Both the position numbers and the translations under genes were made by a program. From Aliiroseovarius sediminilitoris (GTDB taxonomy: Bacteria > Pseudomonadota > Alphaproteobacteria > Rhodobacterales > Rhodobacteraceae): a stretch of 64,000 nt of DNA. A model generated the notes under the pieces. It made no database searches. It saw nothing but the letters and a program-made list of their open reading frames with translations, and had not been told where the DNA came from. The stretch spans positions 248,001-312,000 of the forward strand of contig NZ_FOJB01000001.1 in NCBI RefSeq assembly GCF_900109955.1. The letters are read 5' to 3'. Position 1 is the stretch's first letter, and every line of letters starts with the position of its first letter. Shown here one piece after another: positions 30,827 through 50,431 of this stretch.

Positions 30827-31861
30827 ATGACCATGAAAAAGCCAGCCGACCACCCCTCATTGCCCGCCCGCAAGGTTGGCGTTCTGTTCGCCAATCTGGG
30901 CACACCAGATGGCTATGACTACTGGTCCATGCGCCGCTATCTGAACGAGTTTCTGTCCGACAAGCGGGTGATCGACTATCCCGCGTGGAAGTGGCAGCCC
31001 ATTTTGCAAGGCATCATCCTGACCAAGCGGCCTTTTTCATCGGGCGAAGCGTACAAGTCGATCTGGAACGAGGATCTGGGTGAAAGCCCCTTGATGACAA
31101 TCACCAAGCAGCAAGTCACCAAGCTACGCGAAGGGTTGGAAAAGCGCTTTGGTGCGGAAATAGTCACAGATTTCTGTATGCGCTACGGCAACCCATCCAC
31201 CAAATCCAAGGTGCGGGACATGGTCGCGGCTGGCTGTGATCGCATCTTGTTCTTTCCGCTTTATCCACAATATGCGGGGGCAACGATGGGCACCGCGAAC
31301 GACCAGTTTTTCCGCGCCCTGATGGACGAGCCATGGCAACCTGCCAGCCGCACCATAGAACCCTATTTCGACGACCCGGCCTATATCGACGCGCTGGCCC
31401 GGTCGGTCGAACGCGGCTATACGGCGATAAAGAAGAAGCCCGATCTGCTGGTCGTATCCTACCACGGAATGCCCGAACGCTATTTGCAGCAAGGTGATCC
31501 GTATCACTGCCAATGCCAGAAAAGCACCCGCCTGTTGAAAGAGCGGTTGGGTTGGGGCGACGACGACATCACCACCACTTTCCAGTCGGTTTTTGGGCCT
31601 GAGGAGTGGCTGAAGCCTTACACGGTAAAAGAGGTCGCGCGCCTGGCCGAGAGCGGCAAGAAGAACATCGCCGTGATCGCGCCCGCGTTTTCGGCCGATT
31701 GCATAGAAACACTTGAGGAAATTCAGGAAGAGATTCAGGAGGCCTTTGTCGAGGCAGGCGGCGAAAGTTTCACCTATATCCCCTGCCTGAACGATGACGA
31801 CGCCCACATCGCAGCGCTGCTGGGTGTGGCTGAACGCAATCTGGCAGGCTGGCTTGAATAG
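30827..31861 (+). CDS. hemH: Ferrochelatase
   Basis: Inserts Fe2+ into protoporphyrin IX, the last step of heme synthesis, at the inner membrane face. The 344-residue enzyme has 'GVLFANLGTPDGYDYWSMRR' near the N-terminus, the metal-ligand His in 'VVSYHGMPERYLQQGDPY' (about residue 215) and the Glu of 'CIETLEEI' (about 292). 'FQSVFGPEEWLKPYT' is a family motif. ATG 30827 follows GGAG by 8 bp. With hemJ (43065-43514) the window holds two late heme steps. Convergent with the capsule-synthesis-like gene, 3 bp apart. Confidence 0.96.
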   Translation: MTMKKPADHPSLPARKVGVLFANLGTPDGYDYWSMRRYLNEFLSDKRVIDYPAWKWQPILQGIILTKRPFSSGEAYKSIWNEDLGESPLMTITKQQVTKLREGLEKRFGAEIVTDFCMRYGNPSTKSKVRDMVAAGCDRILFFPLYPQYAGATMGTANDQFFRALMDEPWQPASRTIEPYFDDPAYIDALARSVERGYTAIKKKPDLLVVSYHGMPERYLQQGDPYHCQCQKSTRLLKERLGWGDDDITTTFQSVFGPEEWLKPYTVKEVARLAESGKKNIAVIAPAFSADCIETLEEIQEEIQEAFVEAGGESFTYIPCLNDDDAHIAALLGVAERNLAGWLE

Positions 31862-41239: not shown

Positions 41240-42072
41240 GGACCAAGCACCGCATTGCGCAGCGCATCATCGACCACCGGGCGTAGTCCGAACCAGCGTT
41301 CAAACCCCGGAACCGCCTGATGTAAAAGCATTCCAAGCCCGTCTACGGTGGCGCATCCGGCTTTCTCTGCCTCCTCCAGAAAATGTGTGCGCAGCGGCGT
41401 ATAGACCAGATCAGTGACCACAGCTTTGGGGTTGAACCCATCCAAGGGCACGCGGAAATCGGGTTTCCCCACCATACCAAGTGACGTGGTGTTCACAGCC
41501 GTCGTCGCTTCATCGAGCATATTGCCGGCTTGCAACCAGTCGAACACCTTGATCCGATTTCCAAACTCGGCCCGAAGTGCGTCGGACCGGGCGCGGGTGC
41601 GATTGGCCAGACGGATCTCGGGCACACCGACCTCGATCAGCGACGCGATAACGGCACGGGCAGCGCCACCGGCGCCAAACACGGCTGCCGGGCCCGTTTC
41701 CGGAGCCCAATCGGGCGCACCTTGGCGCAAATTTTCGGTAAATCCGTAACCGTCTGTATTATCAGCGTAAATCTTTCCGTCCGGGCGGAAGATCAGTGTA
41801 TTGGCCGCCCCGATCAACGCGGCACGATCGGTCACAGTATCGGCCATGTTCAGCGCCGTTTCCTTGTGCGGTATCGTCACGTTCACACCGACAAACCCCG
41901 CCTTTGGAAGCGTGCGAATGACTTGCGCAAAATCTTCGTTACTGACACGCATTGGAATATAAAACCCTGGTATCAAATTCGTCCGCAGCCAATGCCCATG
42001 CAAGCGGGGCGACAATGAATGCTCAATCGGGTCACCAATCACGCCAGCCAATGGGATACGTCGTTCACTCAT
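41236..42072 (-). CDS. aroE: Shikimate dehydrogenase (NADP+)
   Basis: Reduces 3-dehydroshikimate to shikimate in aromatic amino-acid synthesis. The 278-residue enzyme has '[17 protein letters not shown]' at the substrate site, the catalytic Lys in '[14 protein letters not shown]' (about residue 68), Asp in '[15 protein letters not shown]' (about 106) and the NADP loop '[17 protein letters not shown]' (about 129-145). '[17 protein letters not shown]' closes it. Overlaps maf by 4 bp and coaE by 4 bp. Confidence 0.97.
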
Positions 42073-42668
42073 ATTTCAAGATCTCCTCGCAAGATCAGGT
42101 ATGACAGCAGCTCTGTCAGCGGCAAACCCAGAACATTAAAATAGTCGCCATCCACTTTGGCAAACAGGCGAACGCCCTCTTCTTCCAGCTTGTAAGCCCC
42201 GACGGCGTGGCGAATACTGTTCCAATTGCGGGTGACATAACTGTCAATGTAGTCGCGCGACAGCTCTCGCATTCGCAGTCGCACAACACCCACATGTCGC
42301 CAGACCGCTTTGCCGTCCTGATACAGAACGGCTGCTGACAACAAGCGATGGGTCTGACCCGACATCATGGCCAGTTGCGCTTTCGCTTCCACTTCGTCCC
42401 GTGGTTTAGACAGAACCTCGCCCCCAAGTTCGGCAATTTGATCGCATCCAAGAACCAGACGACCCGGATTCTTCTCGCTGATTTTGCGCGCCTTGAATTC
42501 GGCCAGCGCGTCGGCAACGTCACGTGGGCTTGCGCCCTCTGCTTCCAATGACGCGCGGATGGTTTCTTCGTCGATTCGGGCGGGCTGCACGTCGATTTCA
42601 ACCTCGGCGTTGCGAAGCAATTGCGCCCGAATGTCCGAAGCCGATGCCAGGATCAGGGAAGTGGCCAT
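42069..42668 (-). CDS. maf: Maf-like nucleotide pyrophosphatase
   Basis: Hydrolyses non-canonical or modified nucleoside triphosphates; linked to septum control in some bacteria. The 199-residue protein begins 'MATSLILASASDIRAQLLRN', which holds the phosphate-binding 'SxR' site in a SASDIR form where many members have SxSxxR. 'LVLGCDQIAELGGEVLSKPR' (about 82-101) supplies the catalytic Asp, and 'HRLLSAAVLYQDGKAVWRHV' follows. It is the first gene left of the proposed origin, and its upstream DNA carries a DnaA-box-like sequence at 42679-42687. Confidence 0.92.
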   Translation of the reverse strand: MATSLILASASDIRAQLLRNAEVEIDVQPARIDEETIRASLEAEGASPRDVADALAEFKARKISEKNPGRLVLGCDQIAELGGEVLSKPRDEVEAKAQLAMMSGQTHRLLSAAVLYQDGKAVWRHVGVVRLRMRELSRDYIDSYVTRNWNSIRHAVGAYKLEEEGVRLFAKVDGDYFNVLGLPLTELLSYLILRGDLEI

Positions 42669-42678
42669 GTGATAACCC

Positions 42679-42687
42679 TGTGGAAAA
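42679..42687 (-). promoter_or_regulatory. DnaA-box-like site 1
   Basis: Minus-strand TTTTCCACA matches the TTATCCACA consensus at eight of nine bases. It is 11 bp upstream of the maf start, so it may also affect maf transcription. Confidence 0.5.
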
Positions 42688-42902
42688 ACTCTGTTTGTTC
42701 CGGTGTTCGGAAGTTCGGATAACACGTCCCTTACGACACAACTGGATAACTCACCTCTTTCCTAGGACAGTTTTCGGGATTGCTCCACTGGGGAAAGTGG
42801 TTTTCGCGAAGGTGAGGTTTTTCGCCCACCCTATCTTTTTATCCTATCGGTTGTCCTCAGCGTGTTATCGAGATTACCGCGATATAATAATGTGTTACAC
42901 TG

Positions 42903-42911
42903 TTATTCCCA
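42903..42911 (+). promoter_or_regulatory. DnaA-box-like site 2
   Basis: TTATTCCCA matches TTATNCACA at all but one position. Lies 24 bp before a second plus-strand box, in the AT-rich half of the gap. Confidence 0.5.
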
Positions 42912-42926
42912 CAAACCAATTTCCTG

Positions 42927-42935
42927 TTATCCACC
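42927..42935 (+). promoter_or_regulatory. DnaA-box-like site 3
   Basis: TTATCCACC matches TTATCCACA except for the last base. It is the best-matched plus-strand box, and weaker 7/9 copies occur at 42714-42722 and 42741-42749 on the minus strand. Confidence 0.55.
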
Positions 42936-43064
42936 TGTTTATAAAAGCAGGGACAACTCAATAATCCCCATTACTCACAACCCCTACATAAACATCATCT
43001 TTCTTTCTTCTTCTTTATTAATTTAAGAAGGGCGGGCCGGGTCAAGTAAACAGGGGTGCAAAGA

Positions 43065-43514
43065 ATGGGCGAATTTCTGGCCGATATTTATCCATGGACG
43101 AAATCGCTTCACATTATGTCGGTGATTGCATGGATGGCCGGGCTTTTCTATCTGCCACGCCTGTTTGTGTATCATACCGAGGTCGTCGGTTCAGGCAACG
43201 AAACGGATGACCTGTTTCAGACCATGGAGCGTCGTCTGCTCAAGGCGATCATGAACCCGTCGATGATAAGCACCTGGCTGTTTGGTCTGCTTCTGGTGTT
43301 GACCCCCGGCATTGTCGATTGGTCAATGATCTGGCCATGGGTCAAGGGTCTGTCGGTTATCCTGATGACGTGGTTTCACATGTGGCTTGGCGGGCGGCGA
43401 ATGGATTTCGTCGCCGGGACCAACACGCTGACCGGTCGGCGCTATCGGTTGATGAACGAGTTTCCGACCGTTCTGATGCTGGTCATCGTCTTCTCGGTTG
43501 TTCTGAAGTTCTGA
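43065..43514 (+). CDS. hemJ: Protoporphyrinogen oxidase HemJ
   Basis: Oxidises protoporphyrinogen IX to protoporphyrin IX in the inner membrane, replacing HemG/HemY in many alphaproteobacteria. The 149-residue protein has four hydrophobic segments; 'SLHIMSVIAWMAGLFYLPRL' carries the conserved His, and 'MERRLLKAIMNPSMISTWLF' the conserved Lys, both important in characterised HemJ. 'WFHMWLGGRRMDF' is a further signature. I start at ATG 43065 (AGGGG eight bases upstream) rather than GTG 43056. First gene right of the proposed origin; rho follows after 132 bp. Confidence 0.92.
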   Translation: MGEFLADIYPWTKSLHIMSVIAWMAGLFYLPRLFVYHTEVVGSGNETDDLFQTMERRLLKAIMNPSMISTWLFGLLLVLTPGIVDWSMIWPWVKGLSVILMTWFHMWLGGRRMDFVAGTNTLTGRRYRLMNEFPTVLMLVIVFSVVLKF

Positions 43515-43517
43515 GAT

Positions 43518-43558
43518 CGTTGACTCACATAGCAATCCGCCGTATGTGACGTTCAACG
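43518..43558 (+). other. Imperfect inverted repeat between hemJ and rho
   Basis: CGTTGA-C-TCACATA (43518-43531) mirrors TATGTGA-CGT-TCAACG (43543-43558): 13 pairs with a small internal loop and an 11-base apex. It starts 3 bp after the hemJ stop and 88 bp before rho, with no T-run. It may be a 3' stem for hemJ mRNA, part of the rho leader, or a protein-binding site. Confidence 0.6.
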
Positions 43559-43646
43559 CGGGCCGTCCGGCCACGCATGTTTCCCATTCCTACTTTGACC
43601 GCACTGCCGCGCGCATGCTGTCCTGAGGCAATCCCAGAGTATTCCC

Positions 43647-44918
43647 ATGTCCGATAACCGTCTGAACCTTGCAGAGCTGAAAGCCAAAAGCCCGAAAGAG
43701 CTTGTCGATATGGCTGAAGAGCTTGAAATCGAAAACGCCTCCACGATGCGTAAGGGCGAGATGATGTTCTCGATCCTGAAAGAACTGGCCGATGATGAGT
43801 GGATCATCGGCGGCGACGGCGTGTTGGAGGTGGTCCAGGACGGGTTTGGTTTCCTGCGTTCGCCGGAAGCGAACTATCTGTCTGGGCCAGACGATATCTA
43901 TGTCTCGCCAGATATGATTCGGCAATATTCGCTGCGCACCGGTGATACGATTGAAGGCATCATTCAGGCACCGGGCGAAAATGAAAACTACTTTGCCATC
44001 ACATCGGTCGAGAAGATCAATTTCGGAGACCCCGAACTGGCCAAACACAAGGTGGCATTTGACAACCTGACACCGCTTTACCCAGACGAACGTCTGAAGA
44101 TGGAGATCGAAGATCCCACCATCAAGGACCGGTCGGCCCGGATCATCGACCTTGTGTCCCCGATCGGAAAGGGTCAGCGGGCACTGATTGTTGCCCCGCC
44201 CCGGACCGGTAAAACCGTGCTGCTGCAAAACATTGCCCATTCGATCGCGACCAACCATCCCGAATGCTATCTGATCGTTCTTCTGATTGATGAGCGCCCG
44301 GAAGAGGTGACGGACATGCAACGGTCTGTGAAGGGCGAGGTCGTGTCTTCGACATTTGACGAACCCGCAACCCGTCACGTTGCCGTTGCTGAAATGGTGA
44401 TCGAGAAGGCGAAGCGGCTGGTTGAACACAAACGCGATGTGGTGATCTTGCTTGATTCGATCACACGGCTGGGTCGTGCATTCAACACGACCGTCCCGTC
44501 GTCCGGTAAGGTTCTGACCGGTGGTGTGGATGCCAACGCGCTGCAACGCCCAAAGCGGTTCTTCGGTGCGGCCCGGAATATCGAGGAAGGTGGATCGCTG
44601 ACCATCATCTCCACCGCGCTGATCGACACCGGCTCGCGGATGGACGAGGTGATCTTTGAAGAATTCAAAGGCACCGGCAACTCCGAGATTGTTCTGGATC
44701 GCAAGGTCGCCGACAAGCGCGTGTATCCGGCCATCGACATCCTGAAATCCGGCACCCGGAAAGAAGAGCTGTTGGTGGACGCAAAAGATTTGCAGAAAAG
44801 CTATGTTTTGCGGCGGATTCTGAACCCGATGGGCACCACAGACGCGATTGAATTCCTGATCTCGAAATTGAAGCAAACCAAGACGAACAGTGAGTTCTTC
44901 GATTCTATGAACACGTAA
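43647..44918 (+). CDS. rho: Transcription termination factor Rho
   Basis: Hexameric RNA helicase that ends factor-dependent transcripts. The 423-residue protein begins with the Rho N-terminal helix bundle ('[20 protein letters not shown]') and cold-shock-like RNA-binding domain ('[20 protein letters not shown]', about 58-77). Walker A is '[15 protein letters not shown]' (about 182), and '[20 protein letters not shown]' plus '[11 protein letters not shown]' are RecA-fold signatures. Length and C-terminus ('[15 protein letters not shown]') are normal. Upstream 132 bp hold an inverted repeat that could take part in rho autoregulation. Confidence 0.98.
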
Positions 44919-46258: not shown

Positions 46259-46274
46259 TGTTTCACGTGAAACA
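46259..46274. promoter_or_regulatory. parS: parS centromere site 1
   Basis: TGTTTCACGTGAAACA, a perfect 16 bp palindrome identical to the bacterial parS consensus. It overlaps the mnmG translation start: the favoured GTG start codon (46267-46269) is the right half of its central CACGTG. ParB, encoded 3.3 kb downstream, would load here as a CTP-dependent clamp and spread. Distance to the proposed origin is about 3.3 kb. Confidence 0.95.
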
Positions 46275-48135: not shown

Positions 48136-48752
48136 CGGATCAGAGCGCGCTTGCGGGGCTTGATGTTTCACGTGAAACAATGGATCGGTTGAAGACCTAT
48201 GCGGCCCTGCTGGAAAAATGGAATCCCGCGATAAATCTTGTCGCCCCGTCAACGCTGTCATCCTTGTGGACCCGCCACTTTCAGGATTCCGCGCAGATAT
48301 TCGATTTGTCGCCGAAAGAAGTGGGGAAGTGGTGCGATATGGGCGCGGGCGGAGGTTTTCCGGGGCTGATTGTTGCCATTTTGGCCCATGAACGCGATCC
48401 TGACCGAAACACGATCTGCATCGAAAGCGATATGCGCAAGGCCACGTTTCTGCGAACGGTCGTGCGCGAAACCGGTGTTAAGGCTTCCATAATCTCTGAA
48501 CGAATCGAGGCGGTTGCGCCATCAGGGGCGGATGTGGTGTCAGCCCGGGCGTTGGCGTCGCTGGCCGAACTTTTGGGCTATGCGGATCGGCACTTGAAGC
48601 CGGGCGGGGTGGGGGTTTTCCTGAAAGGGGAAAATTACCGCGCTGAGGTCGAAGAAGCGCTTGAAAAATGGCAGTTTGAACTTGATACATATCCCAGCAA
48701 GACCAACCCGAACGCCGTTGTTTTGAAAATCGGAGATCTAGAACGTGCCTGA
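48132..48752 (+). CDS. rsmG: 16S rRNA (guanine527-N7)-methyltransferase RsmG (GidB)
   Basis: Methylates G527 of 16S rRNA; loss gives low-level streptomycin resistance in other species. The 206-residue enzyme has SAM motif I '[18 protein letters not shown]' (about 73-90), '[17 protein letters not shown]' and '[20 protein letters not shown]'. Its N-terminus '[20 protein letters not shown]' holds the peptide VSRET, encoded by parS site 2. Overlaps mnmG by 4 bp and parA by 8 bp. Confidence 0.96.
48164..48179. promoter_or_regulatory. parS: parS centromere site 2, inside rsmG
   Basis: A second exact TGTTTCACGTGAAACA, within codons 11-16 of rsmG, where it encodes VSRET. It is 1.9 kb from parS site 1 and about 5.2 kb from the proposed origin. 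The palindrome constrains the local protein sequence, which explains why this segment recurs in GidB proteins of organisms that keep parS here (established for several ParABS loci; the constraint argument is inference). Confidence 0.95.
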
Positions 48753-49548
48753 TATTATCAATGGCCATGGCCCGAAGATCATCGCGATCACAAATCAAAA
48801 AGGCGGTGTGGGCAAAACAACGACCACAATCAACCTGGGTGCCGCGCTGGCCGAGACAGGAAGCAAAGTGCTTTTGATCGACCTTGATCCGCAAGGAAAT
48901 GCCTCAACTGGACTAGGTGTTGAGGTCGCGGATCGGAAGCTCACAACATATGACCTATTGCTGGAAGAGGCGCTGTTGACGGACGTCCTGCAAGAGACCG
49001 ATGTCGAGAACCTGTTTATCGCGCCTGCAACCACTGATTTGTCCTCGGCGGATATTGAGCTGGTGTCGAATGAAAAACGCAGCCACCTGTTACATGACGC
49101 GGTGCGCGCGACGGGTTTAAGCCAGCTGGGTCTGGACTATATCCTGATTGACTGTCCGCCGTCGCTCAACCTTCTGACGGTCAATGCGCTGGTGGCCGCA
49201 GACAGCGTTCTGATCCCATTGCAAAGTGAATTTTTTGCGCTGGAAGGTCTTTCACAACTGATGCTGACCATTCGTGAGGTGCGCCAGACGGCCAATTCCA
49301 ACCTCCGGATCGAGGGGATCGTGCTGACCATGTTCGACACTCGAAACAACCTGTCCCGCCAGGTAGAGGCAGATGCCCGCGACAATCTGGGAGAGCTTGT
49401 GTTCGACACCATGATCCCGCGCAATGTTCGGGTCAGCGAAGCGCCGTCTTTCGCGTTGCCGGTTCTGATGTATGATCCCATGTCGAAGGGCAGTCAGGCT
49501 TATCGCGATTTGGCATCCGAACTGTCCATACGCAACAGAAGAGGCTGA
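48745..49548 (+). CDS. parA: Chromosome partitioning ATPase ParA (Soj)
   Basis: Deviant-Walker ATPase that forms a nucleoid-bound gradient pulling ParB-parS complexes apart. The 267-residue protein has 'NQKGGVGKTTTTINLGAAL' (about 17-35) with the signature Lys, 'LIDLDPQGNASTGLGVE' and 'YILIDCPPSLNLLTVNAL' (Walker B, about 131). GTG start inside the end of rsmG (8 bp overlap). parB follows after one base. Genes beside two parS sites and the proposed origin strongly support the chromosomal rather than plasmid type. Confidence 0.97.
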   Translation: MPDIINGHGPKIIAITNQKGGVGKTTTTINLGAALAETGSKVLLIDLDPQGNASTGLGVEVADRKLTTYDLLLEEALLTDVLQETDVENLFIAPATTDLSSADIELVSNEKRSHLLHDAVRATGLSQLGLDYILIDCPPSLNLLTVNALVAADSVLIPLQSEFFALEGLSQLMLTIREVRQTANSNLRIEGIVLTMFDTRNNLSRQVEADARDNLGELVFDTMIPRNVRVSEAPSFALPVLMYDPMSKGSQAYRDLASELSIRNRRG

Positions 49549-49549
49549 G

Positions 49550-50431
49550 ATGAGCAGGAACCAAAAACAACGTGGTCTGGGTCGCGGTCTGTCTGCGCTG
49601 ATGGCCGATGTCACAACCGAAGAAACGCCAAGCACGCAATCCCCGCGGCGCGCCGATCTTGTTGTGCCGGTGGAGAAAATTACGCCCAACCCAGAACAGC
49701 CCCGGCGTCAGTTCACTGAAGAGCAGCTGAATGATTTGGCCGCATCCATCCGCGAAAAGGGCGTGATCCAGCCTTTGATCGTCCGCCCCAAGCCTGGTGC
49801 GGACGGCGAGTACGAGATCGTCGCCGGCGAGCGGCGCTGGCGGGCGTCGCAAATGGCGCAACTTCACGAACTACCTGTTATCGTTAGAGAATATAGCGAT
49901 ACCGAGGCGTTGGAAGTCGCGATCATTGAAAACATCCAGCGCGCAGACCTGAACGCCATTGAAGAGGCCGCGGGCTATCGTGACCTGATGAATCGGTTTG
50001 GCCATACGCAAGAAAAAGTCTCGGAAGCGCTTGGTAAAAGCCGCAGCCACATCGCGAACCTGCTGCGGTTGCTGAACCTGCCTGACGAAGTGCAGGATTT
50101 TGTGAGAGATGGGAAGCTAAGCGCCGGACATGCACGCACCTTGGTAACGGCAGACAACCCGGTTGAATTGGCACGCCAGATCATCGCAAAGGGTTTGTCG
50201 GTGCGAGCCGCCGAGGCTCTGGCGAAATCACCGAAGCCAAACGCATCGAGACCACCGCGCCAAAAGGCCGAGAAAGATGCGGACACCCGTGCGCTTGAGG
50301 GTGACTTGTCCGCCGCCCTGGGAATGAACGTTCAGATTGATCACGCAGCAGGTGGGGAGAGCGGAACCGTTTCGGTGCGTTACGCCTCGCTAGACGATCT
50401 GGATACGCTGTGCGGAAAACTGTCGTCCTAG
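49550..50431 (+). CDS. parB: Chromosome partitioning CTPase/DNA-binding protein ParB
   Basis: Binds parS, clamps DNA in a CTP-dependent way and loads SMC. The 293-residue protein begins with the ParA-activating basic segment ('SRNQKQRGLGRGLSALMADV'), followed by the CTP-binding ParB/Srx fold with box II 'VAGERRWRASQMAQL' (about 107-121) and 'AIIENIQRADLNAIEEAAGY', then the helix-turn-helix 'EKVSEALGKSRSHIANLLRL' (about 162-181), and a C-terminal dimerisation region. ATG 49550 after 'GAAGAGG'. The stop shares bases with the convergent hemW stop in CTAG (50428-50431). Confidence 0.97.
   Translation: MSRNQKQRGLGRGLSALMADVTTEETPSTQSPRRADLVVPVEKITPNPEQPRRQFTEEQLNDLAASIREKGVIQPLIVRPKPGADGEYEIVAGERRWRASQMAQLHELPVIVREYSDTEALEVAIIENIQRADLNAIEEAAGYRDLMNRFGHTQEKVSEALGKSRSHIANLLRLLNLPDEVQDFVRDGKLSAGHARTLVTADNPVELARQIIAKGLSVRAAEALAKSPKPNASRPPRQKAEKDADTRALEGDLSAALGMNVQIDHAAGGESGTVSVRYASLDDLDTLCGKLSS

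Follow-up and report, generated by a model that had tools for sequence, protein, structure and literature searches.

Origins of replication in the Rhodobacteraceae have been predicted with Ori-Finder across 101 genomes on the basis of a GC disparity minimum, a local GC minimum, DnaA boxes and the proximity of parAB, with eight strains presenting unclear origins being left out of the survey (Kopejtka et al., 2019; PMC6699656). In Caulobacter crescentus, the origin (Cori) is found between hemE and a DUF299/COG1806 gene, an arrangement proposed as the ancestral state (PMC1914354). TCCCCA is the hexamer of the Caulobacter W-boxes, which are weak DnaA sites (PMC4285127). Finally, the layout of the Bacillus subtilis basal unwinding system (BUS) comprises tandem boxes, a GC-rich spacer and a trinucleotide repeat (PMC8287927).

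The DNA considered here, termed the window, is a stretch of 64,000 bases (bases 248001-312000) of contig C1, the 3,043,064 bp main chromosome in a 3.41 Mb assembly of six contigs. Within the window, the 395 bp gap between maf and hemJ (42669-43063; C1:290.7-291.1 kb) had originally been predicted to be a probable replication origin. The skew minimum, the top-ranking cluster of DnaA boxes, low GC content, a dif-like site, parS and conservation across the genus and the family all agree with that assignment and, as judged from these sequence features, this gap is almost certainly the oriC of the main chromosome.

All four features relied upon in the Ori-Finder survey of the same family hold for the present gap; flanking genes, box layout and fixed spacing are not described in the available text of that report (Kopejtka et al., 2019; PMC6699656). 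Like Cori, the gap occupies a niche in the same conserved string of genes, contains mostly weak DnaA boxes together with TCCCCA, has an AT-rich element close by and has parS within 8 kb. Unlike Cori, it is not bordered by hemE or ppsR (COG1806/DUF299) and is devoid of CtrA, GANTC and matching IHF sites. With no described origin having been found for the genus, oriC would now be placed to within a few hundred bases, and the rule that it is the gap between maf and hemJ should help find oriC in other Rhodobacteraceae genomes, drafts included. The alignment is, moreover, ready for studies of constraint on DnaA-box spacing in Alphaproteobacteria with no visible CtrA site at the origin.

The gap and its flanking genes

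The gap is delimited on the left by the start codon of maf (CAT, 42666-42668) and on the right by the ATG of hemJ (43064). The product of maf (42069-42668, minus strand) matches PF02545, while that of hemJ (43064-43514, plus strand) matches PF03653 above the cut-off, with TIGR00701 being its top NCBIfam match, slightly below the cut-off. The best named relatives of the HemJ protein come from Aliiroseovarius species and share up to 89% identity with it, placing the organism within or close to this genus of the Rhodobacteraceae. The gap was originally described as both AT-rich and the site of a switch from leftward to rightward transcription, and both descriptions were borne out. Pfam and NCBIfam matches confirmed the identities of the leftward genes (a dnaQ-type exonuclease gene, coaE, aroE and maf) and of the rightward genes (hemJ, rho, mnmE, mnmG, rsmG, parA and parB). 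The GC content of the gap is 43.5%, as compared to about 58% in the surroundings. In a sample of the chromosome comprising forty 20-kb stretches and the window (864 kb, or 28% of the chromosome), only 0.03% of 395-bp windows presented a GC content below that of the gap.

A plus-strand ORF of 146 codons (42524-42964) overlaps the gap. Because this ORF has no Pfam match and is interrupted in 19 of the 21 genomes in the genus set, it was not considered to be a gene. An Rfam search of positions 42500-43700 returned zero RNA matches.

DnaA boxes

When compared with TTATCCACA, the gap contains no perfect DnaA box, two boxes with a single mismatch and a further eight with two mismatches. The original prediction had listed three one-mismatch boxes; the count is corrected to two, while the excess over chance that such boxes imply is real. 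Dinucleotide shuffles of the gap contained 0.12 boxes with up to one mismatch (p=0.002) and 1.47 boxes with up to two mismatches, with the ten boxes of the latter class seen in the gap being reached by none of 500 shuffles. The TTATCC copies noted at the same time are likewise present, with four such cores being counted. Upon summing box scores, the gap, with a score of 12, was the top 395-bp window in the 864 kb sampled, the runner-up scoring 7. Perfect copies of TTATCCACA were rejected as a marker of the origin, given that the genome contains 19 and the gap none.

At the left end of the gap, a conserved module, GATAACCCTGTGGAAAAACTCT (42671-42692, minus strand), recognized in both the alignments and the box scan, includes the one-mismatch DnaA box TTTTCCACA (42679-42687). 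The box scan also identified two weak DnaA-like boxes on the same strand, each with two mismatches, namely, TTATCCGAA (42714-42722) and TTATCCAGT (42741-42749). One of the two TCCCCA hexamers in the gap, corresponding to the Caulobacter W-box consensus (PMC4285127), is found at 42789-42794 on the minus strand. Further to the right, and now on the plus strand, lie the weak DnaA-like box TTGTCCTCA (42851-42859), which reads TTATCCCCA in most congeners and TTATCCACA in the family consensus, and the one-mismatch box TTATCCACC (42927-42935), kept in most congeners. These are followed by two abutting DnaA-like boxes on the plus strand, TAATCCCCA + TTACTCACA (42962-42979), which start the right conserved module and for which the family consensus is TAATCCCCA + TTATCCACA. 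Overall, boxes of the left group are on the minus strand, whereas the plus strand carries most of those at the right. The present genome has the fewest boxes with up to one mismatch, with two as compared to three to five in each of 20 congeners; it presents TTTTCCACA at the left and TTACTCACA in the right pair.

Position on the chromosome and proximity to parS

Over 104 contiguous kb (C1:228001-332000), cumulative GC skew reaches its minimum at window base 43013, in the AT-rich end of the gap. Coarse chromosome-wide skew, calculated from the approximately 0.86 Mb sampled, concurs, with its lowest point near 289 kb and its highest near 1.82 Mb. Such a location, at the bottom of the replicon's GC-skew curve, is as expected of an oriC. 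The original prediction had named a skew minimum elsewhere as a result that would speak against it, an outcome not encountered in either the 104 kb or the sampled chromosome.

Taking C1, a single contig, to be circular, the point opposite the gap was calculated to be at 1.812 Mb. A dif-like site, TCGCATAATCAGTATTATGTAAA, is found at C1:1833314, 21 kb from this point, and differs at two positions from a search pattern modelled on the general form of dif. Together with the skew maximum, this site puts the terminus opposite the gap. A second dif-like site, with one mismatch and hence better than that of the chromosome, was seen in the second contig of the same genome (C2:91761-91783). This contig may accordingly represent a chromid or plasmid relying on XerCD/dif.

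In the whole assembly, the 16-bp parS sequence was found within one mismatch at only two positions, both reading TGTTTCACGTGAAACA. The first (46259-46274) overlaps the start of mnmG and encodes VFHVKH (M/V-F-H-V-K-H), while the second (48164-48179) is within rsmG and encodes VSRET. These sites are 3-5 kb to the right of the gap and, together with parA and parB (48745-50431, plus strand; ParA-family and ParB-family NCBIfam matches), span the region 3-8 kb to its right, in agreement with the originally noted presence of parS and parAB within a few kb. The first parS occurs at the same offset in 59 of 72 Rhodobacteraceae loci and the second near the same place in about 60. Since both sites are inside coding sequence and conserved in position, certain conserved residues of MnmG and RsmG, a tRNA- and an rRNA-modification enzyme, respectively, would seem to be imposed by a centromere site.

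Origins linked to dnaA are common in bacteria, and dnaA (C1:393.7 kb) is only 103 kb from the gap. Nonetheless, the probability that replication begins beside dnaA is negligible. That gene is 103 kb removed from the skew minimum, the best box score in the sampled dnaA region is 5, as opposed to 12 in the gap, and parS and parAB instead adjoin the gap between maf and hemJ.

An AT-rich element at the right end of the gap

A probable DNA-unwinding element, consisting of CCCCTACATAAACATCATC, then a T/pyrimidine-rich run and then TTAATTTAAGAAG (42980-43030, plus strand), is assigned on the basis of duplex stability, the skew minimum and conservation. The 60-bp window beginning at position 42971 (42971-43030) ranked 21st of 172,308 sampled windows in terms of low duplex stability, and the skew minimum at 43013 falls within the element. 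The gap accordingly offers what is expected of an oriC, namely, an AT-rich and easily melted element adjoining the boxes.

At this end of the gap, the tandem pair of DnaA boxes precedes a short spacer rich in GC and then a trinucleotide repeat. This order is conserved and, as a lead, can be likened to that of the B. subtilis BUS, with (CAT)n being a candidate DnaA-trio-like repeat. At the same time, the repeat differs from its B. subtilis counterpart in that it reads 3'-TAG-5' rather than the consensus 3'-GAT-5'. The BUS rule calls for at least three NAN trinucleotides, a pattern to which the T-rich run conforms trivially. The phase of the repeat is TAG, and a strict 3'-GAT-5' trio reading fits one triplet only, the CTA beside the spacer.

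A mechanism for initiation at this site can be proposed. DnaA-ATP would bind the staggered and mostly weak boxes, those at the left being on the minus strand and the main ones at the right being on the plus strand, where they face the AT-rich element. A DnaA oligomer anchored at the abutting pair TAATCCCCA + TTACTCACA may extend across the GC-rich spacer into CTACATAAACATCATC and the T-rich element. Such an oligomer would melt the region of about 42985-43030, leading to helicase loading and two diverging forks, while ParB bound to the two parS sites would segregate the new origins.

Conservation and fixed spacing

Alignments included 21 genomes of the genus and 78 Rhodobacteraceae gaps, with locus L162 (short maf match) and locus L112 (contig end) being excluded from gap comparisons. 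The gap is conserved at the same place in relatives, being present between maf and hemJ in 21/21 genus genomes, where its length is 388-397 bp, and in all 79 assessable named loci. On average, gaps from the 20 congeners contain 3.85 boxes with up to one mismatch, as compared to 0.09 upon shuffling, while those from the 78 Rhodobacteraceae contain 2.90, as compared to 0.11. In 53 of 67 16-kb loci, the gap is the 411-bp stretch most dense in boxes.

Two modules stand out in the alignments. The left module, GATAACCCTGTGGAWAA, contains a minus-strand DnaA box for which the family consensus is TTATCCACA. The right module is organized as TAATCCCCA-TTATCCACA-GGCCCTACA-(CAT)n-T-rich run-TTTAAGAAG, beginning with the two abutting boxes. 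The left-to-right module distance is 288-290 bp in 20 of the 21 genus genomes. In 19 species, the interior between the modules measures 264-266 bp and presents about 54% identity and 0.009 gap events per substitution; locus L087, in which the left module begins inside the extracted stretch, was excluded from this test. By contrast, the hemJ-rho spacer, serving as sole control, varies from 118 to 137 bp, with 64% identity and 0.062 gap events per substitution. This deficit of indels in the interior suggests a constraint on spacing, with the effect size being provisional given the single control spacer.

That the length of the interior is kept while its sequence drifts is as expected if the boxes need a fixed helical register, in which they would be held by the fixed distance from the left box to the right pair. 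The same pattern has been described in enterobacterial oriC, with conserved boxes being separated by variable spacers of fixed length. It is conceivable, although on balance doubtful, that Rhodobacteraceae origins generally comprise a rigid spacer of about 265 bp, free in sequence yet held in length to within a base or two per genus, that keeps a left DnaA site in helical register with a right tandem-box/melting module. If so, this would be an order-specific architecture lacking CtrA and CcrM sites, derived by the stripping of ppsR, hemE and hemH from the locus ancestral to the Alphaproteobacteria.

The conserved spacing also bears on the idea that the gap is a mere divergent promoter region for maf and hemJ-rho, with its boxes serving DnaA as a transcription factor and the origin being elsewhere nearby. 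While maf and hemJ/rho need promoters in the gap, and while DnaA doubles as a transcriptional regulator in Caulobacter (PMC4468827), the gap contains a single sigma-70-like promoter match, the same as shuffles, and a genus-wide spacing of about 290 bp would not be expected of two promoters. With the 104-kb skew minimum falling inside the gap and its box score being unmatched in the 864 kb sampled, dnaA region included, this explanation is highly improbable, and assignment of the gap as oriC is preferred.

Gene order around the origin

The order maf-gap-hemJ was found in 79/79 named Rhodobacteraceae loci in which both genes could be read, an 80th, L112, being cut by a contig end. The oriC described here is as such ordinary for the Rhodobacteraceae. 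The absence of hemE and of a regulatory kinase gene from the borders of the gap had been correctly noted in the original prediction, yet the gene order there deemed a variant is the usual one in the family. In this genome, hemE maps to C1:2937141, at a distance of some 396 kb from the gap, next to what looks like hemC. The kinase is missing order-wide, with PF03618 (PpsR) being detected in none of 101 near-complete genomes of the order in a search in which the Caulobacter control was positive.

By contrast, most of the 20 loci drawn from other families of the class present a different order. In 17 of them, a stretch of approximately 0.3-3.3 kb lies between maf and hemE, which in 16 of these 17 is parted from hemJ by an interval of about 1 kb. 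The ORF upstream of hemE corresponds to PpsR (PF03618) in two tested cases, while that between hemE and hemJ encodes ferrochelatase (HemH) in one tested case. Most other Alphaproteobacteria examined present the order maf-[ppsR]-gap-hemE-[hemH]-hemJ. Comparison of the two layouts, with ppsR, hemE and hemH lost from the wider one, points to the origin having stayed in place as its old border genes left, a departure that, judging from gene order, is dated to the family ancestor or earlier.

In the present genome, hemH is found at 30869-31822, 11 kb to the left of oriC, and contains one of the 19 perfect copies of TTATCCACA (at 31261). In two loci from outside the family, L171 and L188, no ORF of at least 150 residues was detected between maf and hemE, and ppsR may thus have left the border of the origin more than once.

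The niche shared with Cori, along with the two TCCCCA hexamers, could be taken to mean that the gap is oriC but operates mainly as does Cori, under the control of CtrA and methylation. This is very unlikely. A scan of the gap revealed zero TTAA-N7-TTAA (CtrA), GANTC (CcrM) or WATCAANNNNTTR (IHF) sites, and no TGATCCACA G-box was found among those boxes in the gap with up to two mismatches.

Elsewhere in the family, the gaps of L141 and L159 (Donghicola mangrovi) each contain 11 GANTC sites in about 396 bp, as compared to zero to three in most of the family, making CcrM methylation control of the origin possible in that lineage.
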